The notes beneath the pieces are model-generated. The model saw only the letters and a program-made list of their open reading frames with translations, was not told where the DNA came from and ran no database searches. A stretch of 64,000 bases of DNA from Entophlyctis helioformis (taxonomy: Eukaryota; Chytridiomycota; Chytridiomycetes; Chytridiales; Chytriomycetaceae): positions 1 to 64,000 of the forward strand of contig JAHLKH010000109.1 of the NCBI GenBank assembly GCA_025526915.1, written 5' to 3'. Both the position numbers and the translations under genes were made by a program. Each line of letters starts with the position of its first letter. Position 1 is the first letter of the stretch. Shown piece after piece: positions 11,048 to 43,418 of the stretch.

Positions 11048-11240
11048 GTGGCGAGGATTGTTGGTTGTGGAGGAAAGGCAGTGCTTGGCTCCGACGGCGA
11101 GATCAGGGCTCCACGCCGCGAATCTGGTTTCTCCACGAATCTCGCGCATCTCCGCTCAACTCAGCAGCGGCGGCCAACAGCAAGGGACAAGGAAGTACAA
11201 ACTACAAGATGATGTTCATGGATGCATTCATGGATCGTGT

Positions 11241-11834: not shown

Positions 11835-11859
11835 GGGCCCGGTTCTCATACCATTACCC

Positions 11860-11943
11860 CTGGTGGAATCGCTGTGATTGGTCAACTCTTGGTGGAATCG
11901 CTGTGATTGGTCGATCCTGGTGGAATTGCTGTGATTGGTTGAT
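11860..11943 (+). repeat. Three 28-bp iterons at the left end of copy A
   Basis: Three tandem 28-bp units beginning CTGGTGGAATCGCTGTGATT, each followed by GGTYRAY. Each holds an inverted CCAAT box (ATTGG). The same unit occurs twice at 19074-19129. They sit just inside the left terminus, where transposase-binding or promoter iterons are usual; the role is inferred. Confidence 0.85.
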
Positions 11944-12070
11944 CTAGTGTGACATTGTGAAGTGCTGACACTGCGCGATGCGAGCACAGCAGCAACGCGC
12001 CATGCCAGATCCAGACGCTGCTGCACTTGCCGCCCAACTGCACACAAGCAACAACGAGCCCATCAACGAG

Positions 12071-12684
12071 CCGTTGTGTGGGCATTTGGCATCGACTTTA
12101 CAGGCCAAGGTGGCAGGCATGCTGTGTTTGAGAGGTTTCTCATCAGGCATCTGCGGTCGTCTGGATATGCCTATGTGCGTCTGATGCCACGCTGTCCATC
12201 CATCCATCCATCCATCCATCTGTGCACCAACTGACACACGATCATGCACACACACAGATCTACCGCTGCAACGAGAACCTGACCAGCCAGATGTGCCCGC
12301 AGTGCAAGCAGGGATCCCATACGAGAACCGCACCAACCTGCGACGCTACGAGTGCATACCATGCGAGACCGTCTACCACCGAGACGTGCTTGGAGCCACC
12401 AACATCGGATGGTGCACTGTGGCATCTGCTCGATGGAACGGCCGCTCTACTTGACGCACACCAAAGCCGACAGCAATCCAGCCACGCCAGAGTACCTTGC
12501 AGACATCAAGGCAATGCATACTGCCATCCAGTGGCGTGCACAACATCACATCATGCTGCTCGTGACACCGCCTGATCAGCCTGTCGTCCAGCAGCCTCCG
12601 TCACCCGATCTGCTTCCCTTCAAGTCGCATGTGGCCTCATGGGATCAGATCATGCTGCCATGTCTGCCAACAACAACACTTTGA
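12071..12684 (+). pseudogene. Remnant of Fanzor-type RuvC/zinc-ribbon C-terminus in copy A
   Basis: This is homologous to the C-terminus encoded at 42530-43214. It opens VVWAFGIDFTGQGGRHAVFE, the RuvC-II region, in one clean frame where the large copy is shifted. An intron (gtgcgt at about 12175 to cacag) leads to IYRCNENLTSQMCPQCKQ. One base is then missing (AAGCAGGGATCC against AAGCAGCGGATCC), so the second half of the zinc ribbon and the RuvC-III region read out of frame. There is no upstream protein, so this is a passenger remnant. Confidence 0.85.
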
Positions 12685-12880
12685 ATCGGGGAACCTCCCG
12701 ATCGACCTAACGGGTCACTTCAATAGAAGGTGAGATGCTTGTTGGATGTGCCTCGCCCGCCTGTCGTCGCATGCTCGTTGCTGACTCGAACCTTCAATCA
12801 CGTGATATGTGGGTTTGCATTCGACGCCTCTTGGTCGAATTTAACTCCAAAATCCTTGGTAATTGTATAATATCGGGCCC
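12682..12880 (+). ncRNA. Candidate omega-RNA scaffold / right end, copy A
   Basis: This is the noncoding tail after the remnant stop codon, conserved with 43212-43418. Visible helices are ATCGGG/CCCGAT just after the stop, GACC/GGTC beside it, and a perfect 7-bp stem ATTCGAC/GTCGAAT around a GCCTCTTG loop near 12818-12839. TnpB and Fanzor guide RNAs are encoded at this position. Expression is not shown by sequence alone. Confidence 0.35.
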
Positions 12881-19067: not shown

Positions 19068-19073
19068 TTACCC

Positions 19074-19129
19074 CTGGTGGAATCGCTGTGATTGGTCAAC
19101 TCCTGGTGGAATCGCTGTGATTGGTCGAT
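19074..19129 (+). repeat. Two 28-bp iterons at the left end of the large element
   Basis: Units CTGGTGGAATCGCTGTGATT plus eight bases, tandem, identical in design to 11860-11943. Copy A has three, so unit number varies. Confidence 0.85.
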
Positions 19130-19444
19130 CTATAGAGCCCTTGCGCAGTGCTGACACTGCGCGATGCGAGTCCAGCAGCAACGGCAGTGGTGCAGGCAGC
19201 AGCGCCTGCTGTCTCGCTGGGCCGTGCGTGTGTGTCCTCCATGAATAAAGAGGGGCGAATGCATAGTCATGTGCAACGCTCTCTCTCTCTCTCTGAGGAG
19301 CATGCCATTCCACACACACAGACCAGTGCTCCATGTGTTGCTGCCAAACAATCAGAGCATGCCAATGCAAACAAACACCAGATCGCGACTTGCCACGACA
19401 CACAACAACACGCAACAACAAACCAACAAGCACGCCCAACACAC

Positions 19445-22400
19445 ATGGGAGTCGTCGGCGCGACTCCTCCCATCGACAAAGCAGGTGGTAGCAAAACCCT
19501 TGATCCCACAAACCCTCTCTCGGGTGCAATTCAGGTCGTGGTACAGCCCCCTCAAACACTGCAGCAGCACAACACAAAGCGTCCGCCCATCCAGTGTGTT
19601 GTGCATGTGGACGTTCTCAGTCTTTTTGCCGGCGATATCTACAAAGCAGCACCAATACTGCTGGCACAGCCAGAGGAAAACTGGACGCCGACACTCGAGC
19701 CGCTCATTGCCAGCCTCGCAGCATCGATTGGAAAGCTCCACACAGTCCGGCTCCATGTCGATGGCTCGCTTCTCAACACCAATATCAAGGCTGTCCGCAC
19801 TGAGCGGGCACGGGTAAATTTGGAAGCAGCATTGTCGATCCAGACAATGGTGGCCAAGCGAAAAGCAGACCAGAAAGGCAACAGGCTCACAAAGTATGCC
19901 ACTTGCTGTTGTTGATTTGCATGCCATGCTGACTGAGTGCCCTTCCAGGGACGAGATCCAGTCACTCCAGTGGGCATTTCCATTGACATGCAAGCGTAAG
20001 GCGGCAATCTGTGGGGCCATTGGGGGTCTTCTTGGATACTTTGGGGAAGGGTCGTCTGTGTGCCTTTGTAAAAACGAGGCGGATGTTTGCATTGCATGCC
20101 GTGTGCGCGAAGCAAGGTTGGTTGGTCTTCTGCATGCCTCTCCAATCCATGGCTCACGCGCCTTTCTTGACAGCAATGTGCCGGTTGTCGTCATCAGTGG
20201 TGATACCGACCTTATCTTTCATTGTGCCGGCTATTGCCCTGTCCTGCTGCTGCAAATGCGCGGCAGACAGATTGCGCAGATAAGATCGTACAACCACCCA
20301 GGTGTAGCATCTATTGCAGCCACCTTTGACTTGCCAGAGATTCTTGACATCTGCCGGTTGGTGGCAGCCGCAGCGAGAAATGACTATTTTCATTGTGATG
20401 AGATTGGTATGTTGGCTTGCCTGCTTTGCAATTTTGGATGCCATGCACTGCGACCTTGACTTACTTGTGATGCTGCGATGATGACTTGCAAGGGATCGTC
20501 ATGGCTGCAAAGTGCATTATGGCATGCATTAGTTTTGAGGCAACATGGGCAGGGATCACTGTCGCAGAGTTCTGTCAACGCCTGCAAGACCCAGACCTTG
20601 CCAGGATGTTTGTGGACGTCTTCAAGGCCTCATTTATGTTGCAGATGTACAAGATCGGCGGCAAGCCTCTTGCTCAATCATTCAGCAATGCCTTTGCGGT
20701 GTTTCTCGACCGTGACAAAACTGGAGCGGATATTGGAGAGTTCACAGACCAAAGCCATGGTTGTTATGGGGATGTTTTTGCTCGAATGATACCGCTGTAA
20801 GTCTTGCTTTGGATGCACTTGGACAGCATGGCATTGACATGAATGCATGCATCATCCAATGGCAACAGCAGGACTGCCAACAGGACTGCCTCGGCTCGAA
20901 AAAAGTAGGTGTGCTTGTGATCTCTGGAGGATTCTCATGGCACTGACTCTGATGGATGCCACTGGCAGATCTGCCTCTGCATGCACGGCCCGCAGTGGCT
21001 GCTGCTTGAGCCACACGACACAGCAGCGGAAGGGCAATGCCAGTGGTGCGGTTTGGCACGTTACACGGGATGAAGTCATGGTGCTCGCCAAGCACATTGT
21101 AACGGATGCCGCCGCAGTCCCGTGGTCACGTGACCTGCTGGCATTGATCTGGACGCGCCTCGCCCGGACTTGGCTTGGCCCTGTTGTTGTAGTTGTATCC
21201 AGCCGTAAGCCTGTATACTCACTGCCCCTCTGCCACCAGGTCTGTGCCTGAGTCTCAATGAAGTTGTATCCAGCCGTAAGCCTGTATACTCACTGCCCCT
21301 CTGCCACCAGACGACCAGCCGCTCTCGACGAGGACAGTTACACACATTGTCAACACAAGGCAACTGGACGACGTTTTTGTCATGCTCAACGGCTGCCGTG
21401 TCGTGTTTAGCTGCGTTCTCCGATGCACGGCAGACCTCCTCGCCGACGACATTCTCGATGGCCGCTGTAAGGAGACGGAAGTACTGCAGTCGGATGCACA
21501 AGAGTTCATTGTCAGACCAGTAGCAGAGACAGGCAGGGGAGATGGAGGGTACCTGCAGTCGGATGCACAAGACGACAGCTGGGGCAAGTCTGGTGCATCG
21601 ACCGCTGGCAAAAGGCGCGTTCCAATAATGCCCATGCAGCCATTGTGTAACTGTCCTCGTCGAGAGCGGCTGGCCGTCTGGTGGCAGAGGGGCAGTGAGT
21701 ATACAGGCTTACGGCTGGATACAACTTCATTGAGACTCAGGCACAGACCTGGTGGCAGAGGGGCAGTGAGTATACAGGCTTACGGCTGGATACAACTACA
21801 ACAACAGGGCCAAGCCAAGTCTGGGCGAGGCGCGTCCAGATCAATGCCAGCAGGTCACGTGGATCACGTGACCGCGACTGAGCATCCGTTACACTCCCCC
21901 CAGCGTAGACAGCCACTTATAAGAACGAAGAGTGGATGAACAGCGACTAAGAGGATGCATGGGCGTTGCACACACGAGAGGAAGAAGTGCGGGCAACGAT
22001 GGACGCATAGGACACAGGACGGGGAACCGTGCGCTCAGAGCGACGAGGTGGGGCGGGATGGTTGAGAGGGGGAAGAGAAGAGAGAGAGAAGGAAGGAGGA
22101 GAAGAGGGAGGAGGGAGAGGAGGGAAAGATGGAGAGAGAGAGGGAGATGCGGGTGCAGCAGGTGCGATCGGCTCGTCAGCCGGAGCAGGTGCCGCGGGCG
22201 TGGCTGCTGCTGGAGCAGGGGCCACTGGTGCAGGAGCAGGCGCAGTGCGCTTGCGGCGAGAGGGCTTGGATGCCTTGGGCTGCGTGGGAGCAGGCGCCGC
22301 GGCGGGGGCAGGGGCAGCCGGTGCAGGAGCCGCGTGTGTGGGCTGAGCCGGTTTGGACACCTTGCCTTAGGCGCCTTGGTCGGCCGAGCATGGAACGCCT

Positions 22401-25400
22401 TGACGAGGTCCTGGGCCTTGCGCATGTCGGCAGCTGGGACCCATGTGTTGTCGTCGGCTGGATAACCGACCCACTTGACCAGATACTCGATCTTGCCGCG
22501 ATAGGTGCGCGAGTCAACGATCCGCTCGACCTCGTAGTTGTCCGACGTGCCGTCGTCGGCGTGGTACTCGGGGTCAGGCCGGGAGGGCACATCCTTGCGG
22601 CCGGTGGGCGCAGACAGAGGGTCGACATACGGGCAGATCCGGTCGGCATGGAACACGTTGTGGACGCGGTGCAGCGAGGCAGGCAGCGCAAGCGTGTAGT
22701 TGAGGCCAGATTCACCAGAGTCCAGGCTGGTGATGGCAAAGGGGCCGAGCCACTTGGCGGCCGTGAGCGGCGGGCGGTGCGAGTCCGCCGGCCAGGAGAT
22801 GCCCTCAGCGTTGAGGAGCACCATGTCGCCGACCTTGTACGCAGGGTGACGGCGGCGACGCTTGTTTGCCTGAACGGCCATGGCTGCCTGGGCTTTGCGC
22901 CGATTCAAAATGGCCGAGTCGCGAGCAGCAGCCATGTCCAGCAGCAGGTCGCGGGCCGCGGCAGATGGTGCCAGGGCTGGCTCGGACGGGAAGGACCGCG
23001 GGTGGCGGCCAAACGCCAGGAAGAAGGGTGCAAAGCCAGACGACGCAGACGGCGCGCAGTTGAGGCCAAAGCAGGTGGGACCGAGCAGCAGCGGCCAGTC
23101 AGAGCCGTGGTAATCGGCCGCCTTGGCGAGCGCATCCTTGATGGTGCGGATGCTGCGTTCGGCCAAGCCGTCAGTCTGCTGGTGGCGAGCCGTGCTGAGG
23201 TTCTGCTTGATCCGGGCAGCAGTGCAGAGGCTCGACCAGAAGGCCGACAGCCAGCGGGCGTCGCGGTCCGAGACGATGTCGACCGGGAAGCCCTTGCCCG
23301 AGCAGACCCAGCGAGTCAGGAAGAGCTCGGCCAGCTCCTGGGCCGACGACGAGCGGCGGCACGGGAACGCGTCGCAGAGACCGGACAGGCGATCGACCAC
23401 AACCAGAGCAGCATCAAACGCATCGTCTTGTCCGCCCGCGGGCAGGAACATGACGTCCATGGCGACGCTCGAGAAGCAGTCGTCCGGGATCGCGAGTGGA
23501 TGCAGCAGGCCGTCGGCCGGTGGTTGGGCGTGCGGTGGCGCTGGCACACGTCGCATGAGGCGACGTAGGCGGCAATGTCCTCGGACATTCTGGGCCAGAA
23601 GTACCGGTTCGACAAGCGGCTGGTGGTCCGCTGACGTCCCTGGTGCGCGCCAAAGGGGAATCGTGGTAGTGGGCGAGCAGATCCGCGCGCAGAGACTGCG
23701 GCACATACAAGTGGTTGCCTTTGTACCACCACGCACCATCCAAGCACTCCATGTGCACTACGACCTTGCGGTCGGCCGGCGTGGCAGACGATGGGTCGGC
23801 CTTCCAGCCAGGCAGTCTGGAGGCGAATGGGTCGGCCGGCAACGCCGCACGCACGTCTTTCGCCCAGTCAGAGTCAGTGCGCAGATTGGCAGCACGGATT
23901 GGGACAGGCGAGCGACAGTTTGTGCAGAGAGGGGCCTTTGAGGGATCGCGGGACAGCAGATCGGCCAGCGCGTTGAGCTCGCCAGGCACGTACTCGATGG
24001 ATGTATCAAACTCCTGCAGAGACAGGACCCATCGAGCCTGCCGATCCGACAGGTGGGGCTGCGTGGCCAACCAGACCAGCGCCTTGTGGTCAGTGTGCGT
24101 GACAGAGCGCACACTGGACAGCAGATGACGGAAACGCGAGAAGAACTCCACGATGGCGAGCAACTCGCGTTCGTGGGTTGGATAGTTCATCTCGGCTGGG
24201 CTAAGCTTACGTGACCAGCAGGCCACCAGCTTCTCGCCATCTGGGTGGATCTGCGACAGGTAGCCGGCAATGACGTAGTTGCTGGCATCAGTGTAGACAT
24301 GCGTTTCCAGAGCCGGGTCAAAGAACCGCAGCTCGGTCGCTTTCAGCACTGCCTGTCGCAGGTCTTCCACAGCCTGCTTTTGAGCAGGGCCCCACTCCCA
24401 CTTGGCATTCTTGGCCAGTAGCTTGTATAGTGGCAAGCACATGGTGGCGTACGCCTTTGCAGGGTTCGGCCCACCAATGAATGACTTTAGCCATACCAGC
24501 TTGCCCAGCCAAGTTGCCAGAGTGGTTGTGTTTGAGATGTGTGGCGCTGCGGCCATCTCCTGCAAGTGCTTTGGCGCAATGGAATAACCAGTGGGCGAGA
24601 GCACGTGACCGCAGAACTCAATGTCCTGCTGCAGGATCATGCACTTAGATGGCTTAATGTACAATTGAGCCTCCAGTAGCAGCTTGAGAACAGTGCGTAG
24701 GTGTTTGATATGCTCCTTGTACGTCGCGCTGTAGATGTAGATGTCGTCCATGTACACCGAGACGCACGTGCCCAGCAGCTCATTGAGCGTCGACTGGATG
24801 GCTTGTGTAAACACAGCCGGAGCATTGGTCAGCCCAAAAGGCATGACCGTGAACTCAAAGTGACCAAACTGGGTGGAGAACGCAGTTTTCCACTGGTCCT
24901 CCGCCTTAACACGGATGTTAAGGAAGCCCTCGCGAATGTCAAGCATCGAGCGGAAGGGTTTGTTTGCCAAGTTATCACGGAGGGTCTCAATCTCCGGGAT
25001 CGCACTGTGGAACTTCACCGAGATGTTGTTCAAGCCGCGGTAGTCAATGACCAACCGCAGCGAACCATCCTTCTTGCGGACAAAGAGCGTGCCGGCGCCC
25101 AAAGGCGATGACGAGCGGCGGATGTAACCTTTGGTGTACCACTCGTCCAGCTGCTTCTTGAGCGCTACGGATGCATCCTGGTTCAGTTTCTTGAGGCCAC
25201 GACGCGGCGGCAGCTGCGCATCCTTAATGAAAGGGATCGCGATCTCGAACTCCGAGTCGTGCGCACGGCCTTGCGGCGGGCAGCAGACCTCGTAGTAGTC
25301 GATGAATGCCTTCTGCGTCTCCTCGTCCGGGCAGACTGGAAGGTAGGGGTACTTCTCCTTCAGCTCGTCCGGGGTGAGGCCGTTTGCAGCCGCGACGCGA

Positions 25401-28400
25401 AGGCGCGCATCCGCAGCTGCCTCACGGTCCTCAGGCAGGTCATCCACATAGACCAGCTCCGCGTACTCGTCAGGATGGGCGAGGATGTCCGACATGGTAA
25501 CCACGATGTCAGAGTGCGGCCGGTTGTGGGGTGCAGCAGGCGGCGGAGCGTCTTCGTGCTGCCAGATGTGGTGCACATCGGGGCGCGACTCGGTTGAGAA
25601 GCGGAAAACACCGCGACGGAAGTTGAATGACGCCTCCGCGGTGGTGCGCAGCCATGGCATGCCCAGGATGACATCATCCACACCGTCATAGACGAGGAAC
25701 CGCACCTGGCTGACCGCAGCTGATCTGTCGGCCAGCGTGAGGTATACCTCTGAATCTAGCCTCTGCAAGTTGCCGTTGGCAAACTCAAGAGTCACCGCCT
25801 GCCGGGTGAACGGCCGGGCAGCGGCGAGCAGGCCATTGGCATCCAACCAATGGCGAGCCACTAGATTCGCGCTGCTGCCAGTGTCCACCAGGACGCTGGC
25901 GCTGCGATTGTCCAGGAACACCGGAAAGGTGCACCGGTGTGTGGTGATGGGCCTCACCGGGGCAAGGTGCCCCTCCTTTAGCCGCGATGGCGGCATCACA
26001 GGACAAACAGGGTGATCAGGGGCCGCGGAGGGCATCTTTTTATTCGCAACACCACCCAATGGGTCACTCTTCTTCATCTGCGTCACTGTACCGCGTCCCG
26101 TCGTCTGAGAACGACGAGACGGTTTCGAGCGACTGCGAGCCGGAGCCATTGCTGGTGCGCCGTCGTCACGGGCAGGGACCGATGGAGATTCGGTGTCAGC
26201 ATTGGGCTTACGCCGGCTGCAGGCTTAGCCGCCGAAGCGTGCTTAGCCGCAGGAGCAGGAGGAGCCAGAGGGGGCGAGCGAACGTACCCGGTTGCCTTGG
26301 CCTTTGCCGCGATGCGCCCAACCTTAGAGTGGTGCTGGCGCTGGCTAGGCGATCGGCCAGCATGGTCGGCTGTCGCAGCAGGCGAGGCAGCCTTACGCGT
26401 CTCAGACGCGCTGCTGCTGCCTGAAGGCGCGGGGGTGGCAGCTTTGGGCGACGAGGAACTCCAAGAACGCGGCGACGCGGCAGCTGTCTTGCCAGAGCTG
26501 GGCTTTGACTGGGCCTCGAGGGCCTTGTGGGCATCTGCCAGAGCAGTGGCGGCGGCAGTCTCCAGGGCGTGCTCAGCTGCCTCTGAGTGATCCTCAAAGA
26601 ACGCGTCGCGGAGGGCGGCATACGTCTTGAACTTCCCTGGGGGCAGATCCTTGATGCGGGCACGGAGGAATCTGAGCTTCTGGTCATCCGTGTATCCCGC
26701 GTCGCTGAACAGCGGTTCGGCCTCCAGAATCCAATCCTGCGGGGCGCGGCCATGGCACAGCGTCGGCTTGAACAGGCTCGCCAGCTTCCCTTCCGCTTGG
26801 TTGCGAATCCGCTCTGGGTTGCGGTGGAGCGACTGGAGGTCGGCGAGGAACTGAGGGAACGTGAACAGATCATCGTCGGCAGAATGCGACTCGTGCCATG
26901 CGGTGACAAACTCGAGTGCGCGGCCAGAGAAATAAGGCAGCAGTAGCGAGAAGATGGCGCCTAATGGGATCGCGTCGACGCCGGCAGTGGTGCAGGCTTC
27001 CTTGTATGCTCCGCCGACTGCAATGACAAATGGCTTGAGGTTCTTGTGAGTGGCGTTCCAGTCGACTGAGGGAGCCGGGCCTTTGGTCATCACAAATCCG
27101 CTGAATGGTACCTGCTTGGCACCCAAGCAGTCTGTGAAAACCTTGGCGAGGTTTGGTGCACGGGCGTCCGCGGCTGCTGGCAGGCGTGCGTCCACCGAGG
27201 ACCCAATCGCGAGGGCCGAACGCGACGCCTGCAAGGCAGCCGTGGCAGCGACAGCCTTGTCCGCAGACTGCTGGGCCAAGGCAACTTGCTTGCTAAGGGC
27301 GATCATCGATTCCACGGTCTTGGTGGCCTGCGTCTGCAAGTTTCGCACGGCTGCCGTGTTGGCTGACACCGAGTTGAACAGAGCGGCCAGACGCTCCTCA
27401 TTGGACGCGGCAGACGTGGTGAAAGAGTCCGCCTGCTGGACTAGCAGCTCGTGGGTGTCATGCAGACGGGTCTGCAGGTCCTCGATGGAGACCTGAACCG
27501 CAGACAGCGATGCGGCGTGGTCATCCAGTGTGATCCGGACGTCCTCGCTGGCCGAATCCTGCAGCTGGTGCACAGAAGCGGACGCGGCGCCAACAGAGTG
27601 GACGGGAAAAGCGAGCGAGCCGCCCGCGCCGCCCAACAGAGCACCTCCGCCGCCCCGAGGCGCGGCAGAGGAGTGGCGAAACGCGGGCGTGCTGGAGGCC
27701 ACTGCAGAGGTTGCATTGCCCGATGGAGCACCCTGGCGGCCACGAGAGCCAGCCTGAGGGAGGCGGGATGCAGACATGCCGCTGGCCATGGAGCCAAGCC
27801 CAGAATCACGCGTGCGGCTATCAGCCCAGATGGTAGAGTTACCCGTAAACCCATGCAGGAGGTGTGACGGCTCGTCGGCAAACGAGGAGTCTGGCGAGGC
27901 GAATGAGGCGCTGTTGGCGTCCGGGTCGGCGTCGGCCGCAGCGCTGGCAGGGCCGGCGCCAGGGGTGGGCGTGCGAGACAGGCCCATAGGCGCACAAAAA
28001 AATTCGACGCCGCAGGTAACGGCGGCTGGCGGCGCGTCGGTGGCGTTGGTTGTTGTTGTAACTGTCCTCGTCGAGAGCGGCTGGCCGTCTGGTGGCAGAG
28101 GGGCAGTGAGTATACAGGCTTACGGCTGGATACAACTTCATTGAGACTCAGGCACAGACCTGGTGGCAGAGGGGCAGTGAGTATACAGGCTTACGGCTGG
28201 ATACAACTACAACAACAGGGCCAAGCCAAGTCTGGGCGAGGCGCGTCCAGATCAATGCCAGCAGGTCACGTGACCACGGGACTGCGGCGGCATCCGTTAC
28301 ACATTGACACGCGGCATCAGTGCACAATGAGAGACACATTGCAGCTCGTTACAGCCCCCCTTGACGAGAGATCCTTCATGGATTGATCGCCACAAAAGAG

Positions 28401-34400: not shown

Positions 34401-36422
34401 GTGCAAAGGTTGAAGTGGATGCCTTGACCACCGCAACACCCGACATTGCCGACCGCGTTCGCCCGCTGCTGGCTGCCGATCCGTTCCTGCTGGACGTCGC
34501 TCGCTGGAAGGCCGATCCTGCTGATGCTGCTCTGCACGAGCGTCAGTTGGCCGCCAAGCTCGAGCTGGTCGACGGCCTGTGGTTCTACGAGGGTCGCATG
34601 TACATCCCAGAGGGTCAAGTGCGCACAGACCTGCTCACCTCGTACCACGAGCCGGCCCATGCCGGCCACCAGGGCCGCGAACGAACATACGGCCGTCTGC
34701 GTGCGCACTACTACTGGCCGGACATGGCTGCGTCGGTCGGCCGCTTTGTGGGCTCGTGCGACGCCTGCCAGCGGTTCAACTCGTCGACGCAGGCGCCTGC
34801 CGGTCTGCTGCACCCGCTGCCCATCCCTGCCGACCGCTTCCAGTCTGTGGCCTGCGACGTTGCGTTCATGCCCATGTCGGACGAGGGCAACGACGCTGCG
34901 TTTGTGATTGTGGATCGCCTGACAAAGCTTGTCAAGTGCGTGCCGACGCGACGCGATGCGACTGCCGAGGATCTTGCCGCGCTGTTCCTCAACCGATGGG
35001 TGCTTGCTGGCCACGGCCTGCCGTCGTCTATCGTCTCGGACCGCGACGCTCGCTTCCTGTCTGCCTTCTGGACGGCGCTCTGTGCGGCGCTGGACATTGA
35101 GCAGGTCATGGCAACGGCCCGCCACCAGGAGACCGACGGCCAGTCCGAACGCACCATCCGCACGCTCAAGGACCTGCTGTCCAAGTACGCCAACCACCGC
35201 GGCAGCAACTGGGAGCACATGCTCGATGCGGCTGTCCACGCCCTCAACTCTGCTCCAAGCGCATCGACTGGCTATGCTCCGTACTTCCTCGCCTTTGGTC
35301 TCGAGCCTCGCACGCTGCCACACGAGCCGGCAGCATCATCGCCGCCAGCTGTCCGCGACCTACTCGCCGCCATTGACAAGGCTCGCGTGGATGCCACAGC
35401 CAACCTGACCAAGGCTCAAGAACGACAGAAGCGCAACGCCGATCGCCACCGCCGGGATGCTCCTGCCTACGCTGTCGGCGACATGGTCATGCTGCAAGCC
35501 GCCGGCATTGTGTGGCCCACCGACACGCATCGCCCCAATGCGTTCCTGCCCAGCTGGTTGGGTCCATTCCCGATCACAGAGGTCAATGCCGCACTGGATG
35601 GTCTCAACTGCAAGCTGGCTTTGCATCCAACCATGCATCGTCTGCATCCGTGGTTCCACGTCCGTCTTCTGAAGCCGTACCGCGATCCGGCCGCCGCCTT
35701 CCCAGGCCGGCCGCTGCCTGCTCAGCCGCCTGCAGTCGCCTTTGCTGATGACCCTGCAACAGCTGAATGGGAGATTGACGCGATTGTGGGACACAAGGTC
35801 GCTCGCAACGGCCGCCGCTCCTTTGTGGTCTCGTACCTCGGCTACGGCCCGCAACACAACGAGTACCGATCGGAGGCCGAGTTGCGCGAGACTGCACCTG
35901 ATCTGCTGGACCAGTACCTCGCCGCCCTCCCAGCACAGCCGCCGGTCCGTCGCAGCCGCCGCCACGCTGGGGATGCATTGGACGTGAATGTGGCTTCCTT
36001 CTTTGTCTGTGCCGATTGTTCTCCAGAGGATCCCTCGTCAAGGGGGGCTGTAACAGTCAGCCGCGATCACGTGACACGCGTGCAACCGGTCGCGCGTCCC
36101 ACTTGAATCCTGACAGACCACAAGGCGACTTGCCCCAGTCGTCGCCTTGTGTACTGAAACCCGCCGTCTGTCAGGTATTGCCCATGCATATGCCTTTATT
36201 ACTACGAAGCTATATCAATGAATAACCTTGTGTACTGAAACCCGCCGTCTGTCAGGCCGCCCATTGTCTCGTTGCACATCGTCCTGTTGCAGCCGCGACA
36301 TCCTTGCTGATATCTGCGAGAATGCAAGCAAGCAGCTGCTGCAGGCTGTGCATGACTGGCGTATCGCTAAAGAAGCATATGCAAAGCTCAGTGCGGCTGG
36401 CAAGATTCTTTATCATGCATTG
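19445..36422 (+). CDS. XPG/FEN1-type nuclease domain, N-terminal part of the transposon gene (interrupted)
   Basis: Exons 19445-19893, 19949-20406, 20493-20796, 20869-20904 and 20969-21097, then 21348-21465 and 36297-36422 once the solo LTR and the 14.8-kb nested block are ignored. The phases agree at every junction and the sum is 540 whole codons. The protein starts MGVVGA, like the MGxxGL start of XPG/FEN enzymes. Predicted metal ligands are all present: D56 (VVHVDVLSLF), D106 (RLHVDGSLLN), E193/D195 (KNEADVCIA), D235/D237 (VISGDTDLIF) and D295 (AARNDYF), followed by a helix-hairpin-helix-like segment (GIVMAAKCI). The tail after 21097 is helical and unassigned (DDVFVMLNGCRVVFSCVL, LLQAVHDWRIAKEAYAKL). 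A structure-specific nuclease on a DNA transposon could process ends or flaps; that is inference. It continues toward the Fanzor-like part. Confidence 0.75.
21093..21347 (-). repeat. Solo LTR of family LTR1 with CACAT target duplication
   Basis: The LTR is 21098-21342 (245 bp, TGTAAC...GTTACA), flanked by CACAT at 21093-21097 and 21343-21347. It matches the LTRs of element 1 in opposite orientation. The host exon reads AKHIVNTRQLDD across the restored site. A solo LTR normally arises by recombination between the two LTRs of a full element. Confidence 0.95.
21646..21893 (-). repeat. 3' LTR of element 1
   Basis: 248 bp. It contains an internal direct duplication of about 50 bp (CTGGTGGCAGAGGGGCAGTG... 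twice), as do the other LTR1 copies. The U3 start differs from the 5' LTR and the solo LTR and looks partly like LTR3 (two CACGTG boxes, CGCGACTGA). Confidence 0.9.
21889..26149 (-). CDS. Element 1 Pol: protease, reverse transcriptase, RNase H, integrase, chromodomain (two frame breaks)
   Basis: Starts at MAPARSRSKP. Aspartic protease (VLVDTGSSANL), reverse transcriptase (VIDYRGLNN, MPFGLTNAPAVF, VYMDDIYIYS), RNase H (HVYTDASNYVIAGYLSQ, THTDHKAL), integrase zinc finger (HYHDSPL... CDVCQRH) and catalytic core (DVMFLP, IVSDRDARWLSAFW, ARHQQTDGLAERSIRT). It ends in a chromodomain (YEVERIVDSRTYRGKIEYLV then KWVGYPADDNTWVP) and a Pro/Ser tail. The frame changes twice inside the integrase zinc finger (about 23660 and 23550), so this copy is inactive as read or carries assembly errors. 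Ty3 chromodomains direct integration to marked chromatin. The stop falls at 21889, inside the LTR. Confidence 0.9.
26083..27987 (-). CDS. Element 1 Gag-like capsid polyprotein
   Basis: 634 residues. The N-terminus is Ser/Ala-rich. A long heptad-like region follows (LQTRLHDTHELLVQQADSF, VRNLQTQATKTVESMIALSK). A capsid-like domain comes after it (IPLGAIFSLLLPYFSGRALE, FPQFLADLQSLHRNPE, RNQAEGKLASLFKP, LRFLRARIKDLPPGKF). No CCHC zinc knuckle is visible. It overlaps the start of Pol by 67 bp in another frame, consistent with programmed frameshifting or reinitiation. Confidence 0.8.
   Translation of the reverse strand: MGLSRTPTPGAGPASAAADADPDANSASFASPDSSFADEPSHLLHGFTGNSTIWADSRTRDSGLGSMASGMSASRLPQAGSRGRQGAPSGNATSAVASSTPAFRHSSAAPRGGGGALLGGAGGSLAFPVHSVGAASASVHQLQDSASEDVRITLDDHAASLSAVQVSIEDLQTRLHDTHELLVQQADSFTTSAASNEERLAALFNSVSANTAAVRNLQTQATKTVESMIALSKQVALAQQSADKAVAATAALQASRSALAIGSSVDARLPAAADARAPNLAKVFTDCLGAKQVPFSGFVMTKGPAPSVDWNATHKNLKPFVIAVGGAYKEACTTAGVDAIPLGAIFSLLLPYFSGRALEFVTAWHESHSADDDLFTFPQFLADLQSLHRNPERIRNQAEGKLASLFKPTLCHGRAPQDWILEAEPLFSDAGYTDDQKLRFLRARIKDLPPGKFKTYAALRDAFFEDHSEAAEHALETAAATALADAHKALEAQSKPSSGKTAAASPRSWSSSSPKAATPAPSGSSSASETRKAASPAATADHAGRSPSQRQHHSKVGRIAAKAKATGYVRSPPLAPPAPAAKHASAAKPAAGVSPMLTPNLHRSLPVTTAHQQWLRLAVARNRLVVLRRRDAVQ
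28057..28301 (-). repeat. 5' LTR of element 1
   Basis: 245 bp, nearly the same as the solo LTR at 21098-21342 (reverse orientation). The inner side toward Gag lacks a primer-binding site I can assign. Confidence 0.9.
28317..29639 (-). other. Element 2 Pro/Ser-rich open frame
   Basis: An open frame of about 440 codons with no ATG at its edge. The sequence is low complexity: Gln-rich start, then Pro/Ser, WSAPTDWSAASDWSASAD-like repeats and THELHRLQP-like repeats. Its end (DLSSRGAV) overlaps the polypurine tract exactly as the Pol end of element 3 does (DPSSRGAV). It may be the C-terminal part of the element 2 Gag-like protein in another frame, or be non-coding. Confidence 0.35.
29438..30112 (-). 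CDS. Element 2 coiled-coil (Gag-like) protein
   Basis: Begins at an ATG at 30112 (MPSGGPGQPGGINQQQQ). A long coiled coil follows (NKQIQQLQATASSLRQELRL, LEQQQLEQTIGDLRATIQHK), then Ser and Ala-rich sequence; 224 residues. There is no enzyme motif. By position after the 5' LTR it is the structural (Gag-like) product of a non-autonomous element. Confidence 0.6.
   Translation of the reverse strand: MPSGGPGQPGGINQQQQRTTAATTHQQQQHATAATNKQIQQLQATASSLRQELRLARRQLRTTRLDHDDCLLAIQQLTAWRTEAFAEMHIIRRACFSPPTPTGRLRYEQAAAALREGVARLDSLQLEQQQLEQTIGDLRATIQHKQAAINCTEQKIHSWLFVLIDSNSSSSSSNTSRGCSTTDLATVPSALAPAMYSPNRSACSSCPTSPSAAPAALALAARLA
30162..30388 (-). repeat. LTR2, complete copy
   Basis: 227 bp, TGTAAG...GTTACA on the plus strand. 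It carries an internal repeat of GCAGTCGGATGCACAAG (two copies). The partner copy is split between 21466-21645 and 28307-28353. Confidence 0.9.
30391..31199 (-). CDS. Element 3 Gag, N-terminal part (inverted)
   Basis: Starts MTTDSLSAEGTGAVGADSSI after a 36-bp leader from the inverted LTR. Helical segments include LAEAAMRLLLKRPELMAEM. A Ty3 Gag core follows (RMLERCLRGSAREWFSNTVM). One frame change lies near 30570 (ARAWKVFTR to ALESSMGICLALYREE). The frame ends exactly where the element 2 LTR begins. Confidence 0.8.
31236..31478 (-). repeat. LTR3, inverted 5' copy of element 3
   Basis: 243 bp, TGCAAC...GTTACA on the plus strand. It is the reverse complement of 36049-36291 and forms a long inverted repeat around Pol. 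This is not the normal LTR arrangement. Confidence 0.95.
31479..36106 (+). CDS. Element 3 Gag C-terminus and Pol
   Basis: Gag-C (RPAHLIQRAQLVIDRFVP) ends with a knuckle-like CYACRRPDHASIRNPACPFH. A frame change leads to the protease (VALLDTGASGMVMS, VILGTPWF). A 13-bp tandem repeat (CCCGAACCAGCAC, about 32640-32780) contains another frame change. An open 1180-codon frame then runs through reverse transcriptase (LCIDYRGLNN, MPFGLCNAPATF, AYMDDILIYS), RNase H (HVYMDASEFAIGGWIGQ, HTDHASLRW), integrase (HHCC with CDACQRFN; SIVSDRDARFLSAFW; ARHQETDGQSERTIRT) and a chromodomain-like end (EWEIDAIVGHKVARNGRRSF). It ends in RRSRRHAGDALDV and reads into the LTR. The enzyme part is intact and looks functional. 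Confidence 0.9.
36049..36291 (+). repeat. LTR3, 3' LTR of element 3
   Basis: 243 bp after the tract AAGGGGGGC. It has a CACGTGA box near its start, a hairpin CACAAGGCGAC / GTCGTCGCCTTGTG near 36119-36152, and a 31-bp direct repeat starting CCTTGTGTACTGAAACCCGC present twice. It is followed by the GCCGC duplication. Confidence 0.95.
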
Positions 36423-36490
36423 GTGGGTTTTGCGAGGCTTGGATGCGTGTCTTGGCTGTCCACTGCATGCTGTTGCTGATCTTCAATGCT

Positions 36491-39400
36491 GCCGGCTTGA
36501 TCCATTACTGGGCCGAGCAGAAGGTGATAGCAAGACTGAATGAGCGGCTCAAGAAGTATCCAGGCTTGAAATGCGCATCTTTCAGGCGTCTAAAAACGCC
36601 AGGTTCGCTCTGCACGGGTTGACACAGTGTGGCATTGTGTATTCACCACTGATCACGGCATTTGTGTGACAGTCAAGGGTAAAAAGACAAAGCAGCCGCT
36701 CAGAAGGAGCACACGGATCGCGACCCCAGAAGCTGTTGCCGATATTCGCGAAACGGCCATAAAGACGCTCAACGCCCTGACAAACCCAACAGATGTCAGG
36801 CATGCTGATTTCCAAGTGTCAGAATTTGGCGAGTGTTATGACCAAGCAAAGCAGATGCTGCAGTCGATTATCAATCGAGTACCGGTGCATCTTTGCATTT
36901 GCTGGCTCTGTTTGCATGCAATGGCTTGCTGCGATTGCTTATCCTTCCACTCAACAGGCCGTCAAGCCACCAAAACCATGCAAGATGCTGCTGCCACCTC
37001 GAGCCGCAGATGATAGAGGCACAGATCGCGACAAGATCCTCTACATTGATGTGCTTCAAGACACAAGGACAACTGTGAGTTGAACTGCAGGCTTGTGATT
37101 GCGAGCATCTTGTGCACATTCAAGATGCATGCCTAACATTGCATTCAACCACGGCAGGATCCATATCTGGTCACACCGGCCATGCAGGCTGAGCGTGATA
37201 AGGAGCGAGCTGAGCAAGCTGAGAAGGCCAAGACCAAGAAGTTCATCCAGGAGCACAAGAAGGATGCAAGCAGGCAAGCCCGCCAGGCTCCATCTGAGGA
37301 CGAGACACGGGCGTAAGTGGCATATGGCATGGCATGTGCCTTGAGTGTGTGTGCTGACTGGTGCGTTCTTTGACAGATATGAGCGTGGTGAAAGATCGGC
37401 GATAGAGCAGATGCTTGAAAAGATCCACCGCATGATGGCATTGCCAGTCATGACGGCTGCTGCTGCCATCCATGGCAATGAGCCAAGGCCAGTGGAGAGC
37501 ACATACGATTGCCCTGAGCAGATCGTCAAAATGGAGGTATGAGTTTGGATTGCCAGGTTGCTCTGCATGTCTGGCTTTGTGTATGTTGACTTGTGCTACA
37601 TACAGGAAATGCTCTCTGGAGATCCAATGCTTGCAAAGTATTTTGGACACCAGGCCAAGACGGCACCGGCCACACAGACCCGCGGTTCGGTCTCAGAAAG
37701 CATCTTCAATGGCGTGTACCGATACACGGCTGACGTGCGGCGTGCATGCATCACTATGATTGGCGCCATCGTTGAAGAGCTCGTCTGTTAGATTATTGTC
37801 TGTTGGCTTTTCCAATTCCGTGTCTCGCGACTCTCCCTTCCCCTTGCTGTTCTATTCAATTGCCTGCCACAGACACTGTCGCCTGACAGCTCCTCTTCCT
37901 TTTGTCTGTGCCTCAGCCAAACCCGCAGTTCCCTGTGCCTTCGCCGCACTCGAGCAGGAACTCTGACAAGAACAGCCCGTAGAAACAACTACCTCGCCGC
38001 TCGCGGCACCCACCGGCCGTCCGGCCTGTTTGTCGCTTGCGGCACCGACCGGTCGCCCAGCCCCCACGTCCTTTGTGACATCCACCTCGTCGCTTGCGGC
38101 GCCTACCGCTTCCTCAGTCCCTATACTGCTCTCTTCGTGCTTCTCATCACGTTCAGTGCCCACACTATCTCTTTGTTGTCTCGCACCCGATCTGCTCAAA
38201 CATCACGCCCTTCGCCCACAACGCGTCTCCGATCCACTTCCTTGACATCCCGTCTCTGATTGGTCAATTTCTCCGATCCTCTTCCTTGACATCTTGTCTC
38301 CGATTGGTCAATTTCCACCGCGACCACTGCTCAGCCTGACGCGTCTCCAGCCCCCACATCGCACCCTGCACGGCCCAGCGACCACTGCTCCGCCTGCTGC
38401 GTCTCCAGTCCACCTTTACTACATCCTCCTCGTCGCTTGCGGCGCCTACTGGTTTGCCAGTCCCTACACTGTTCTCGTCGTCCTTCTCGGCGCGCTCAGC
38501 CTCCACCGGTCTCCCGGCCCCCACGTCCTTTGTGACGTCCTCCTCGTCGCTTGCGGCGCCTACTGGTTCGCCAGTCCCTACACTGTTCTCGTCGTCCTTC
38601 TCGGCGCGCTCAGCCTCCACCGGTCTCCCGGCCCCCACGTCCTTTGTGACGTCCTCCTCGTCGCTTGCGGCGCCTACTGGTTCGCCAGTCCCTACACTGT
38701 TCTCGTCGTCCTTCTCGGCGCGCTCAGCCTCCACCGGTCTCCCGGCCCCCACGTCCTTTGTGACGTCCTCCTCGTCGCTTGCGGCGCCTACTGGTTTTCC
38801 AGTCCCTACACTGTTCTCGTCGTCCTTCTCGGCGCGCTCGGTGCCCACTCCATCTCTTTGTCGTCTCAGTCCAAACATCTCGCCCTTCGTCCGCAACGCG
38901 TCTCCGATCCTCTTTCTTGACATCTCGTCTCTGATTGGTCGATTTCTCCGATCCTCTTCTTTGACGTCTTGCCTCTGATTGGTCGATTTCTGCCGCGTCC
39001 ATCTCACGTCCCACCACCGCCCTGATCGCATCCTGCACGGCTCAGCGACCACTGCTCGGCCTGCCGCGTCTCCAGTCCATCCCACATCCCACCACCGCCC
39101 TGATCGCATCCTGCACGGCCCAGCGACCACTGCTCAGCCTGCCGCGTCCATCTCACGTCCCACCACCACCCTGATCGCACCCTGCACGGCCCAGCGACCA
39201 CTGCTCGGCCTGCCGCGTCTCCAGTCCATCTCACATCCCACCACCGCCCTGATCGCATCCTGCACGGCCCAGCAACCACTGCTCAGCCTGCCGCGTCCAT
39301 CTCATGTCCCACCTCTGTCCTGATCGCATCCTGCATGGCCCAGCGACCACTGCTCAGCCTGCCGCGTCCATCCCACATCCCACCACCGCCCTGATCGCAT

Positions 39401-42400
39401 CCTGCACGGCTCAGCGACCACTGCTCAGCCTGCCGCGTCTCCAGTCCATCACACGTCCCACCACCGCCCTGATCGCATCCTGCACGGCCCAGCGACCACT
39501 GCTCAGTCTACTGTGTCTTCTTCACCGCCCACCCATGCTCAAGGCTTTTGACGTCCTCCGCGGATCATCAGGGGATGACGAGGCTTAAAATTTTTCTCTC
39601 CTTCTGCCGCCTTGGGTCCTCTTGGCCTCCTCGGCTAGGGGGGGGTGTTAGATTATTGTCTGTTGGCTTTTCCAATTCCGTGTCTCGCGACTCTCCCTTC
39701 CCCTTGCTGTTCTATTCAATTGCCTGCCACAGACACTGTCGCCTGACAGCTCCTCTTCCTTTTGTCTGTGCCTCAGCCAAACCCGCAGTTCCCTGTGCCT
39801 TCGCCGCACTCGAGCAGGAACTCTGACATCGTCGCACTCGACCCATATGCACCGCTGCCACTCAAGTTCTGCGTCATGGAGGCCAGGAGGAATGGTGAGA
39901 TGGAATATGTGTATATTGATCCTGATCACTTCAAGGATGAGAGCACGTGGCTCTACGCCGCTGGATGCGTCCTCAGATGGCCCGTTAATGCCCGGCGCAT
40001 GTACGGCGAGGGCCCGCTCTGCAGCAACACCGACATTGCTCACTATGGCGACTTGGTGAGACTTGAGGCGGGCACGATGGTCAAGATCTGCACCTTCACC
40101 GACGACACAGCACCAGCAGTAGCAACAGCAGCACCAGCAGCAGTAGCCGCCGCATCCAGCAGCACCGATGCCCAACCACCAGCCATCGAGCCACCACTAC
40201 AACGGGCAGTACCATTGGCAAATGATCTGCTCAAGGTGCTTACAAACAGCACCTCTAGTGGCGAGGGAGCCGTCACGATGCTTCTGCGATACCTGGGCTA
40301 CATTCTCACTGGTCAGGAGTCGGTCATGCCGTGGGCAACAAAGCATGTTGCCCACTCATGGATTGTGACGGTCATGCAGATGATCATCAACCGCAAATGG
40401 ACGCAGCAGATGATCCGGGACAGCATGACCAAGATGCGGGCTGGTGTGGCGCGGGCAGCAAAGATGGACGCGACGCAGGCCAGCTCATTGCTGTCAGCCA
40501 TTGTGCACATGGACGCAAGCATGATGCATGCCGTTTTGCCTGGCAGGCTTGATGACAGTTTGTGTACAGCTGCTCGGAACGACATCTACAAAAATCTGGC
40601 ACAGGGCATCTGTGGCATGCTTGCTGTGCACTTCATGACCCACCAGTCAATGCTCATTGACTGGGCAATCCACCGACTGATTCCTGGTTTATCTGCTGAC
40701 AAGGCAGCGGAATTTGCCAAGGCAATGGATACAGCCACCAGGGACGCCACGTCTGGCACGCCACTGTCGACCAGACAAGACAGACGCATTGTCGAGATCC
40801 CACAAGCACTGCACAGGCTCACGGCGGTCGTGCGCAACAAGTCGCTGTCAGAGGCGGGCAAGTTCAAGCAGTTGTGTGATCTCGCAGGCTCATCCCTCAA
40901 GTTGTGTCCGCAGCCTGCAGGCCGCAATCCGTTTGTCCTCATCACTGAGACCACCCTCTTTTGGGCGGTGATGAGGACAAAGGATGAGCGCATCCGTGGC
41001 AATCAGGATCCTGCTTTGCAGGCATTGAGACTACAGCTTCTGGCTGCACTCGGTTGGTCGCACTGCCTGTATATGCCATGTGTACACAATTTGATGCTGA
41101 CACTGCACTTTTCTCCAAGGCTATGAAGATGCTGAGTCAGCTCTTGAGTTGCCCAATGAGGATATCAGGAAAGCATTCAGCGCAAGTCGTGAGGTTTGCA
41201 TCTTTGACATCCTTCTCCCAGGTCTCTGCCCCAAGAAAGGTCGCTTCCAGACACCTTCAGAAGCCAAAGATGAGATGGACACGGTTACCAAGGCCACAGC
41301 CAAGGGACGCAAGAGGCTGATGAGCAGGGTCTCGGATGGCAAGGAGCGCGAGAAGCATATCAAGGCTGCGATTGATGCTGTGCGTCCAGCAAGACCAGCC
41401 AAGGCGATCCTACTTGGCAGCATCATGACGGATGGATACAGCATCTACCAGCTGGCTCTGGACTGCCGCACAAACCGTCCAGAGTCACCTCGCAGTATGT
41501 GGCGTGCTTGAATGCGATGGTGCACACATGGATTCTGACTGCCGCCTCGATCTGCAGATCCCAACGCGGCGTCTTCAGGCGAGCAGCTGTGGCTTGTTGA
41601 CGAGGCTGATGGCGAGCCCGATTACATTAATGGCAAATGTGAGTTGCTGTACCAATCCAGACGCGCACTTGTTGACCACACCGACTGACATGCCATCCAC
41701 AGCCGCCAATCCAGCCAACCCGTCAGCCACCAAGCCATACACGCCCAATCCTGTAAGCCACTTGCATGCCAACCTCGCACTTTGGTGCACATGCATTGCA
41801 CATCCTCACTCATGCCATGGCATGACAGGCAAGCGCAACTTTTACGCTCACAGCGACTGCCCAACATCGTCAACGCCAACAATCTGTTCACTGACCAAGG
41901 CTACCAGACTGTTCGCATTGTCAGCTTTGATTGGGGCCAGCGGTACCTGTATGGCGCGTCCAGTATCTTGGTTGATCTCAGAGACTTTTTGTATAAGCTC
42001 GAGTCCAACTACGTGCTCTCCTCTGGCATGGCACATGCTGAGGGCATCTTTCAGCGGTGGTATGCATGCAATGACTCTGCCACGCGCACTCTTGACCAGA
42101 TCAACTCACAGTGCCTGCCTCTTGTGCCAGGTTTGCTGATCGATATGCCAAGGCGTCCGACATCCAGGCGGCCATTGCATTCAAGACAGCAAAGCATGCT
42201 GATCCAAACGCCAAGCAGGCGAGAGAGCCTTTTGGGATCTGCGCTGCCATGCGTACTGCACGCCATTCCTGAATGCACGGGTACGTTTTCTCTGTTTCTG
42301 GATGCCCATTGCCATGGCCGCCATGCTGCTTGATTGCCTGCTGATTGCACTGGATGGCATGGCATGGCATGGCATTCCACAGAAGGTCAAGGCCAAGCGG

Positions 42401-43214
42401 TTCACCATGCGCAGCACCGCACGTCTGATCGCGGAAACGCTCTTGAGGGCATCATGAAGCTGGCAGGATCGACCACTGGAAGCGCGCATCTGCTGCATCT
42501 CAAGGCCGCTGTGACAAGCCAACAGAGAAGGACATTCCCGTTGTGTGGGCATTTGGCATCGACTTTACTGGCAAGGTGGCAGGCATGCTGTGTTTGAGAG
42601 GTTTCTCATCAGGCATCTGCGGTCGTCTGGATATGCCTATGTGCGTCTGATGCCGCGTTGTCCATCCATCCATCCATCTGTGCACCAACTGACACACGAT
42701 CATGCACACACACGCACAGATCTACCGCTGCAACGAGAACCTGACCAGCCAGATGTGCCCGCAGTGCAAGCAGCGGATCCCATACGAGAACCGCACCAAC
42801 CTGCGACGCTACGAGTGCATACCATGCGAGACTGTCTACCACCGAGACGTGCTTGGAGCCACCAACATCGGGATGGTCGCACTGTGGCATCTGCTTTTTG
42901 GACACCGGCCGCTCTACTTGACACACACCAAAGCCGACAGCAATCCAGCCACGTCAGAGTACCTTGCAGACATCAAGGCAATGCATCTATTCATCCAGGA
43001 TTGTGCACGAAATGCTCCACCTGTTGTCCCACAGCCTCAAACGCGGAAACACTTCAAGTCGCATGTGGCCTCATGGGACCAGATCAGCCTGCCGTCCTGT
43101 GGCGCTCAAGACACGGTCCATCCGTCGTCCAGCAGCGACCAGTACGCAGACAGCCTGCCCTCAAGTCACTTGACCTGCATCCCACACAGTGACTTGTTTG
43201 ACTACCAACTATGA
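36491..43214 (+). CDS. Fanzor-type RuvC nuclease region with zinc ribbon (broken by insertion and frameshifts)
   Basis: Probable continuation of the XPG gene, though the link at 36423-36690 has unresolved frames. Exons with good phases: EAVADIRETAIKTLNALT (36.7 kb), KILYIDVLQDTRTT, a charged helix AERDKERAEQAEKAKTKKFI, YDCPEQIVKMEEML, then across element 4 IVEELVALDPYAPLPLKF and a 400-residue helical exon to 41.06 kb. The next exon has FDILLPGLCPKKGRF and ILLGSIMTDGYSIYQLALD, matching the segment before RuvC-I in Fanzors. IVSFDWGQRYLYGA fits RuvC-I. KVKAKRFTMRSTARLI and VVWAFGIDFTG fit the RuvC-II region. NENLTSQMCPQCKQ ... YECIPCETVYHRDVLGATNI is the zinc ribbon plus RuvC-III aspartate. Frames shift at least three times between 42.39 and 42.58 kb, so this copy is probably inactive. 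Confidence 0.7.
38424..38870. repeat. 114-bp minisatellite, four tandem units
   Basis: Units start at 38424, 38538, 38652 and 38766 with near-perfect identity; diverged partial units extend left to about 37990. The 114-bp period is a multiple of three, so 38-residue repeats stay open in several frames (for example SSSLAAPTGSPVPTLFSSSF on plus, RAEKDDENSVGTGEPVGAA on minus). Whether any frame is translated is unknown. Confidence 0.9.
39005..39520. repeat. Second minisatellite of 69-79 bp units
   Basis: About seven units, each with CCTGATCGCATCCTGCACGG and CCCAGCGACCACTGCTCAGC, separated by variable CGTCTCCAGTCCATC spacers. Diverged forms precede the first array near 38340. It lies inside element 4. 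Confidence 0.85.
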
Positions 43215-43418
43215 ATCGGGGGACCTCCCGATCGACCTAACGGGTCACTTTTTCTAACGATAAAGGTAAGACCCTTGTTGGATGTGCCTCGCCCGCCTGT
43301 CGTCGCATGCTCGTTGCTGACTCGAACCTTCCATCGTGTGATACGCGGGCATCTATTCGACGCCTCTTGCGACGAATCCAATTCCAAAATCCTTGGTAAT
43401 TGTATGAATATCGGGCCC
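43212..43418 (+). ncRNA. Candidate omega-RNA scaffold / right end of the large element
   Basis: It starts at the stop codon and runs to the terminal GGGCCC. It is conserved with copy A in sequence and in helices: ATCGGG/CCCGAT, GACC/GGTC, and ATTCG-A-CGC / GCG-A-CGAAT near 43364-43386, which pairs with different bases from copy A (ATTCGAC/GTCGAAT). In TnpB and Fanzor systems the guide RNA scaffold overlaps the 3' end and right end, and the guide is the flanking DNA, here from 43419. Position and paired changes support structure; transcription is unproven. Confidence 0.4.

Follow-up and report, generated by a model that had tools for sequence, protein, structure and literature searches.

The locus described here raises the question of whether a eukaryotic transposon can bring together, in one coding unit, a flap nuclease of the XPG/FEN type and an RNA-guided nuclease of the Fanzor type. 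The window, i.e. the whole stretch of 64,000 nucleotides that was analysed, is contig C109 (JAHLKH010000109.1, positions 1 to 64,000) of the assembly of Entophlyctis helioformis, a chytrid fungus of the order Chytridiales (genome of 29.57 Mb in 482 contigs). An earlier note on this DNA had proposed a single DNA transposon carrying both nucleases on the same strand within shared ends. Both halves do lie on the plus strand inside 19068-43417, and many copies, their ends, a predicted fold and signs of selection speak for such an element. The pairing of two nucleases in one unit therefore stands, while the note had missed that the halves form one fused gene and that the element has no recognisable transposase. 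The gene of this terminal inverted repeat (TIR) transposon very probably joins an EXO1/FEN-type domain, a middle region of about 1100 amino acids (aa) and a Fanzor1-like nuclease.

Structure and copies of the transposon

In an alignment of the other copies to the window, homology stops sharply at 19068 and at 43417. The ends of other copies, GGCCCGGTTCTCATACCATTACC (5') and GGCCCGATATTCATACAATTACCAAG (3', reverse complement), form an imperfect TIR roughly 23 bp long, the outer 5' part of which is missing from the window copy. Pattern searches of the genome counted 76 5' ends (at most 2 mismatches) and 164 3' ends (at most 3 mismatches). With 100 of the 164 3' ends listed, at least 41 of the 76 5' ends face a 3' end within 30 kb, alongside no wrong TIR pair on the same strand. 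These 41 pairs comprise 28 elements of 7.2-9.8 kb, 3 of 1.0-2.2 kb and 10 that are longer. The window copy comes to about 7.24 kb without its three insertions; seven relatives of group 1 have 7232-7362 bp.

Where a target site duplication (TSD) is visible, it has a length of 8 bp: ATAAAGTC in copy L038 (0 mismatches), with one mismatch each in L024 and L027. In the other 6 of the 9 elements compared, the 8-mer flanks differ at 4-8 positions and no TSD is visible. Judged from these comparisons, the following feature is one member, swollen by three insertions of the long terminal repeat (LTR) type, of a TIR DNA transposon present in many copies:

19068..43417, plus strand: whole transposon copy, outer part of the 5' TIR gone (homology ends, TIR comparison, insertion edges)

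Shortened relatives were also observed. One of them, resembling a miniature inverted-repeat transposable element (MITE), lies in the window and keeps part of the exon region of the TNB domain:

11836..12879, plus strand: internally deleted MITE-like relative, 1044 bp (both TIRs, perfect 8-bp TSD CAAAGCAG)

Two further short TIR pairs of about 1 kb are found elsewhere in the genome, on contigs C35 and C436. Copies L022 and L026 have their 5' flank in common (about 70 bp) and different 3' flanks, as if they had recombined after insertion.

A single intron-rich gene

Copy L034, spliced by hand at GT-AG sites, yields an open frame of 1978 aa interrupted by 17 introns of 61-103 nt; a protein-guided aligner was used for the other copies. 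The exon pieces of the window (A to K) keep their order and strand in other copies, at about 30-45% identity in the most diverged. The 20 loci compared for this purpose were picked via the middle region and are not a random sample; the XPG part was seen in 15 of them, and in 2 of the other 5 it lies beyond the fetched stretch. For six copies the reading covers all three parts: L030 and L034 are free of stops and frameshifts, L024 has one stop, placed at the site of a probable extra intron in its group, and L023, L032 and L038 contain frameshifts. In the window copy the FEN part is open and the RuvC part needs five frameshifts; because of these, and of the lost outer 5' TIR, we regard this copy as dead. 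Its parts are as follows:

19445..19893, plus strand: exon 1, with the MGVVG... start, the Asp in VVHVD (19598-19621) and the Asp in LHVDG (19751-19765) (motifs, protein-guided alignment)
19949..20116, plus strand: exon 2, with the FEN-type Glu-x-Asp in NEADVCIA (20073-20096) (motif, protein-guided alignment)
20174..20406, plus strand: exon 3, with Asp-x-Asp in ISGDTDLI (20193-20216) and the last Asp in RNDYF (20376-20405) (motif, protein-guided alignment)
20493..21097, plus strand: H3TH-like continuation (IGIVMAAKC...) and start of the middle region, introns included (copy alignment)
21343..21465, plus strand: piece of the middle region between insertions 1 and 2 (homology to copies)
36292..37785, plus strand: middle region (homology to copies)
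39829..41052, plus strand: middle region, long exon ending at a predicted donor (copy comparison)
41120..41494, plus strand: exon with the Fanzor1-type TDG in TDGYSIYQ (41428-41451) (motif, protein-guided alignment)
41829..42059, plus strand: exon with the RuvC-I DWG in FDWGQRY (41926-41946), frameshift near 41844 (motif, alignment)
42383..42640, plus strand: exon with RuvC-II, FGIDFTG (42552-42572) and HAVFERFLIRHL (42584-42619), frameshifts near 42423, 42482 and 42574 (motif)
42720..43214, plus strand: last exon, with E-alt, the zinc ribbon NENLTSQMCPQC (42732-42767), HRDVLGATNI (RuvC-III, 42840-42869) and the stop (43212-43214) (Pfam, motifs)
43215..43417, plus strand: 3' non-coding end, strongly conserved, containing a pair of nearly invariant hairpins and the 3' TIR at 43392-43417, a candidate guide-RNA scaffold (alignment)

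We discarded an extra intron that the aligner had placed at 19485-19594, since this stretch is an open frame and the National Center for Biotechnology Information (NCBI) gene model P0003, which belongs to another copy, reads through it. The FEN-part junctions of this model (copy C18) match our own reading of C18. On the predicted splicing, the FEN and RuvC halves are the two ends of a single intron-rich gene encoding a protein of about 1980 aa. The fragmentary state of the NCBI gene models tells against this, as P0003 ends at 397 aa, at a point where our splicing continues. Since the NCBI models of this genome come as short, split proteins, each element could instead produce two separate proteins, from alternative transcripts or a cleaved polyprotein, with no working fusion. 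We consider this rather improbable: with introns of just 61-103 nt and one frame across 1978 aa, any second promoter or terminator between the parts would have to lie in coding sequence.

The Fanzor1-like C-terminal half

The C-terminal RuvC and zinc-ribbon region claimed in the earlier note is present, with its motifs at 41428-42869 and a Pfam TNB match in the window (E=2.5e-9), although the spacing of the zinc ribbon is CPQC-x16-CxxC and not CPQC-22-CIPC as first given. In L034 the TNB domain (PF07282) scores 38.3 bits against a cut-off of 26.3 (E 1.5e-9), and all 150 of the 150 TNB matches listed in the genome exceed this cut-off. Moreover, L034 (D1673-x188-TS-xx-C4-x5-RD) fits the C-terminal Fanzor/TnpB motif D-X(125,275)-[TS][TS]XX-C4-X(5,50)-RD given by Bao and Jurka (PMC3627910).

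Two further marks, named in PMC10711439, are TDG, a motif of the WED domain of Fanzor1, and E-alt, a Glu just upstream of the zinc finger. TDG was present in 20 of 22 reads, the exceptions being L023, which is frameshifted at the site, and L006, which stops short (L037 and L008 are one locus). A Glu 7 positions ahead of the first zinc-ribbon Cys was found in all 22. What departs from the Fanzor fingerprint is RuvC-I, which is DWG in all 21 covering reads, where PMC10711439 describes DPG as near exclusive in Fanzors. Because of this replacement we use the label Fanzor1-like, and not fingerprint Fanzor, for the C-terminal half, which, judged by motifs and Pfam, is a RuvC/zinc-ribbon nuclease. 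A profile search of the Protein Data Bank (PDB) with alignment A2 gave one row, an AI-designed RNA-guided nuclease matched over the zinc ribbon (E 0.64). Full-length and C-terminal protein searches found no relatives among about 8000 word-sharing candidates scored, which low-complexity words may have filled.

The last ~230 nt of the element have a mean column identity of 80% in 13 sequences and include the two nearly invariant hairpins. We consider this 3' end a candidate guide-RNA scaffold. The covariation term of +0.69 counts against this proposal; as the paired positions hardly vary, the alignment decides little either way. Rfam returned no RNA in the window at the gathering threshold.

The EXO1/FEN-type N-terminal half

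The full FEN set of acidic residues, also asserted earlier, was recovered: all seven lie at 19598-20405 in the window copy, they are invariant across subfamilies, and they are the sole invariant acidic columns of the FEN-part alignment (A1). Their spacing is 50/84/2/21/2/58, compared with 53/72/2/19/2/49 in 1a76, the spacing pattern having been composed only after inspection of the element sequence. Some subfamilies have a protein that starts with MG, others one that starts with MT.

Foldseek searches with the predicted FEN model returned human EXO1, T4 RNase H and FEN1 as best matches, together with XRN1, XRN2 and Rat1. The lack of a PIN/XPG fold, named in the earlier note as a refuting outcome, did not occur; the N-terminal half is predicted, in a low-confidence model, to have a PIN/FEN-type fold. 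PF12813 (XPG_I_2) matches 7 of 9 proteins at E values of 1.9e-4 to 0.014, with scores under the 24.2-bit cut-off.

Several results weigh against such an assignment or add nothing to it. The model is weak, with a predicted local distance difference test (pLDDT) value of 49.9, the core (41-100 and 145-200) reaching block means of 60-89, and the TM-scores of the top Foldseek rows are low (0.33-0.38). An earlier model had a pLDDT of 44.3 and a best Foldseek E of 0.3. The comparison of A1 with five archaeal FENs by hhalign was negative: its score of 15.9 fell short of the 21.3 reached by the highest-scoring among 60 column-shuffled profiles, and of the 27.0 obtained with A5, an unrelated profile. 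A PDB hmmsearch with A1 gave zero matches, PF00752 missed the FEN-part family in the genome search, and NCBIfam and PHROGs searches gave no useful match. Other weak Pfam hits recur in A1 members as well (FAD_binding_4 in 3 of 8, DUF7742 in 2 of 8).

It might also be argued that the FEN-like domain acts on RNA and not on DNA ends, e.g. by XRN-like trimming of a guide RNA or its precursor, as the presence of XRN1, XRN2 and Rat1 among the structural matches would allow. The best of these matches are, however, the DNA 5' nucleases EXO1, T4 RNase H and FEN1, and the YEAD motif of the L034 group is identical to that of EXO1, so that we consider an RNA substrate decidedly improbable.

A protein search with A1 found nine proteins (proteins of ~170-540 aa were considered), all from E. 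helioformis. Two other origins for the FEN-type sequences were rejected. A canonical host XPG gene is not involved, as PF00752 finds just three loci, none of them the element; one is Exo1-like by PDB search and one XPG-like by our own reading. Viral relatives were not found either: viral contigs were scanned twice, with 42 and 34 matches to the pattern, none of which tblastn identified as a relative.

Pairing, selection and exchange between copies

At least 122 FEN-type loci were counted in the genome (matches merged by hand, many loci incomplete). Among the matches listed, 60 of the 122 are followed on the same strand by a TNB match no more than 15 kb away, at 5000-6634 bp in 51 of the 60 (median 6.1 kb); TNB lies on the opposite strand in 4 and behind in 0. 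When the middle region is included (its long exon was found at at least 83 loci, likewise merged by hand), 88 of the 122 pair within 22 kb, with 3 matches behind and 5 on the opposite strand. Copies in which the two halves belong to unrelated elements, a further refuting outcome foreseen at the outset, were not seen among XPG-type loci, while 34 of the 122 are unpaired among the matches listed, which weakens this negative and weighs against the main reading.

The ratio of non-synonymous to synonymous divergence (dN/dS), estimated from 9 pairs for each part, is 0.23-0.48 in the FEN part and 0.31-0.53 in the RuvC part; by these estimates both halves are under purifying selection. This bears on the idea of an element without nuclease function, in which the RuvC half would be a degenerate passenger and the likeness to FEN a product of convergence. 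The broken window copy and a DWG atypical of Fanzors would suit this idea, yet both halves keep their catalytic residues, dN/dS stays well under 1 and the fold matches agree with one another, which makes it most improbable.

Another phenomenon observed in this family is that subfamilies resemble each other far more closely in the RuvC/TNB exons, their introns and the 3' end than in the FEN part. Between L034 and L030 the synonymous divergence (dS) is 1.43 in the FEN part and 0.44 in the RuvC part, and 3' halves have therefore probably been exchanged or converted between subfamilies. The skew of similarity toward the 3' half points to gene conversion or modular exchange.

A possible role for the fused protein

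TnpB-type nucleases cut DNA under the guidance of RNA, and nucleases of the EXO1 type digest 5' ends and flaps. By analogy, the Fanzor part may bind a guide RNA derived from the element's conserved 3' end and direct a cut in matching DNA, e.g. a donor site vacated by excision or an empty allele. The tethered EXO1-like domain would then resect or trim the 5' ends at the break, and repair would be pushed toward homologous copying, by which the element is restored or spread. That one polypeptide combines guided cutting with 5'-end processing is proposed tentatively, from knowledge of the families. The fuller reading, of one giant protein in which an RNA-guided TnpB/Fanzor cutter and an EXO1-like resecting nuclease, perhaps with a transposase in the middle, force homologous copying, has in our estimate a probability of roughly one in three.

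The middle region of about 1100 aa gave no convincing family match in Pfam or PDB searches and may hide a transposase. The fused protein could itself be the mobility enzyme and need no partner element, the middle being a transposase of unrecognised fold and the FEN and RuvC parts processing excised ends or gaps. In keeping with this, the gene fills the 7.2-kb element save its ends, the 41 TIR pairs include no size class at 2.2-7.2 kb, recent copies differ little (dS 0.03-0.07), and the subfamilies share a conserved middle region (40-50% identity to the first sequence). Against it, Pfam and PDB profile searches with the 1978-aa protein and with its middle region recognised no transposase family or signature, and Fanzor1 elements may be non-autonomous, according to PMC10711439. 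We regard this explanation as unlikely.

If the repair-steering reading is true, the protein would represent a naturally occurring guided nuclease that carries its own resecting domain on a single chain, which is of interest to homology-directed editing. With a fusion lineage in which both active sites appear to be under selection, and at least 122 FEN-type loci in a genome of 29.6 Mb, the hypothesis is directly testable.

Comparison with known systems

The likeness to Fanzor1 consists of the D-x188-TSxx-C4-x5-RD arrangement, TNB, TDG, E-alt and a TIR element with a short TSD (PMC3627910, PMC10711439 and PMC10432273). The differences are a length of about 1980 aa, compared with 633 aa in the prototype SPu-1-1p (PMC3627910), the FEN/EXO1-type N-terminus, DWG for DPG, and no recognised transposase in the element. 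SPu-1 of Spizellomyces punctatus also has a chytrid host, TIRs and a Fanzor protein as its coding content; as described in PMC3627910, it is an element of about 2.1 kb with a single 633-aa open reading frame (ORF) and putative TA sites, whereas the element described here is 7.2-9.8 kb long, with some 17 introns and 8-bp sites.

With the RAD2/XPG family (EXO1, FEN1, XPG, GEN1) the N-terminal half shares the seven acidic residues with similar spacing, the succession of strands and helices, a pair of invariant basic residues following the second Asp, an H3TH-like GHG/GIG, and EAD as in EXO1. It differs in being encoded by a transposon, in its fusion to a TnpB-type nuclease and in a sequence that stays under the Pfam cut-offs. 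Academ transposons are likewise large elements with DNA enzymes other than a transposase, and no Academ transposase was recognised in the present element. Some of them probably carry an XPG nuclease; the enzyme recorded for Academ in the literature consulted is a RecQ helicase.

No published description of a Fanzor-XPG pairing was found in the open-access papers searched, Repbase and subscription papers being outside this scope; two of these papers name Fanzor together with flap endonuclease, and one names TnpB together with XPG. Fanzor and chytrid appeared together only in PMC10432273. In the published accounts, as far as available, Fanzors occur as stand-alone proteins, whether or not a separate transposase accompanies them, and the reason why transposons keep them is left open.

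Insertions in the window copy and neighbouring repeats

Each of the three insertions is flanked by a 5-bp target duplication:

21098..21342, minus strand: insertion 1, 245 bp, solo LTR-like (TG...CA, CACAT duplication, second copy at 28057-28301)
21466..36291, no strand assigned: insertion 2, nested Ty3/gypsy-type retroelements with chromodomains (TG...CA, TSD GCCGC)
37786..39828, no strand assigned: insertion 3, tandem repeats enclosed by LTR-like direct repeats of 183 bp (TG...CA, TSD TCGTC)

That this retroelement nest had joined two unrelated genes was ruled out, as insertion-free copies have both halves colinear. Upstream of the transposon, 7526-11794 contains three diverged direct copies of one segment, starting at 7526, 9629 and 11374 (spacing ~2.1 and ~1.7 kb); two minus-strand ORFs of this region (7405-8529 and 9481-10449) had zero Pfam matches at E 0.001. 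Insertion 3 is a non-autonomous LTR-type element, with identical 183-bp ends that enclose tandem repeats of 71/78 bp and 114 bp. Within insertion 2, at 31236-36291, a Ty3/gypsy-like pol ORF with chromodomain lies between perfect inverted repeats of 243 bp, an orientation that is unusual for an LTR element, in which direct flanking repeats would be expected.

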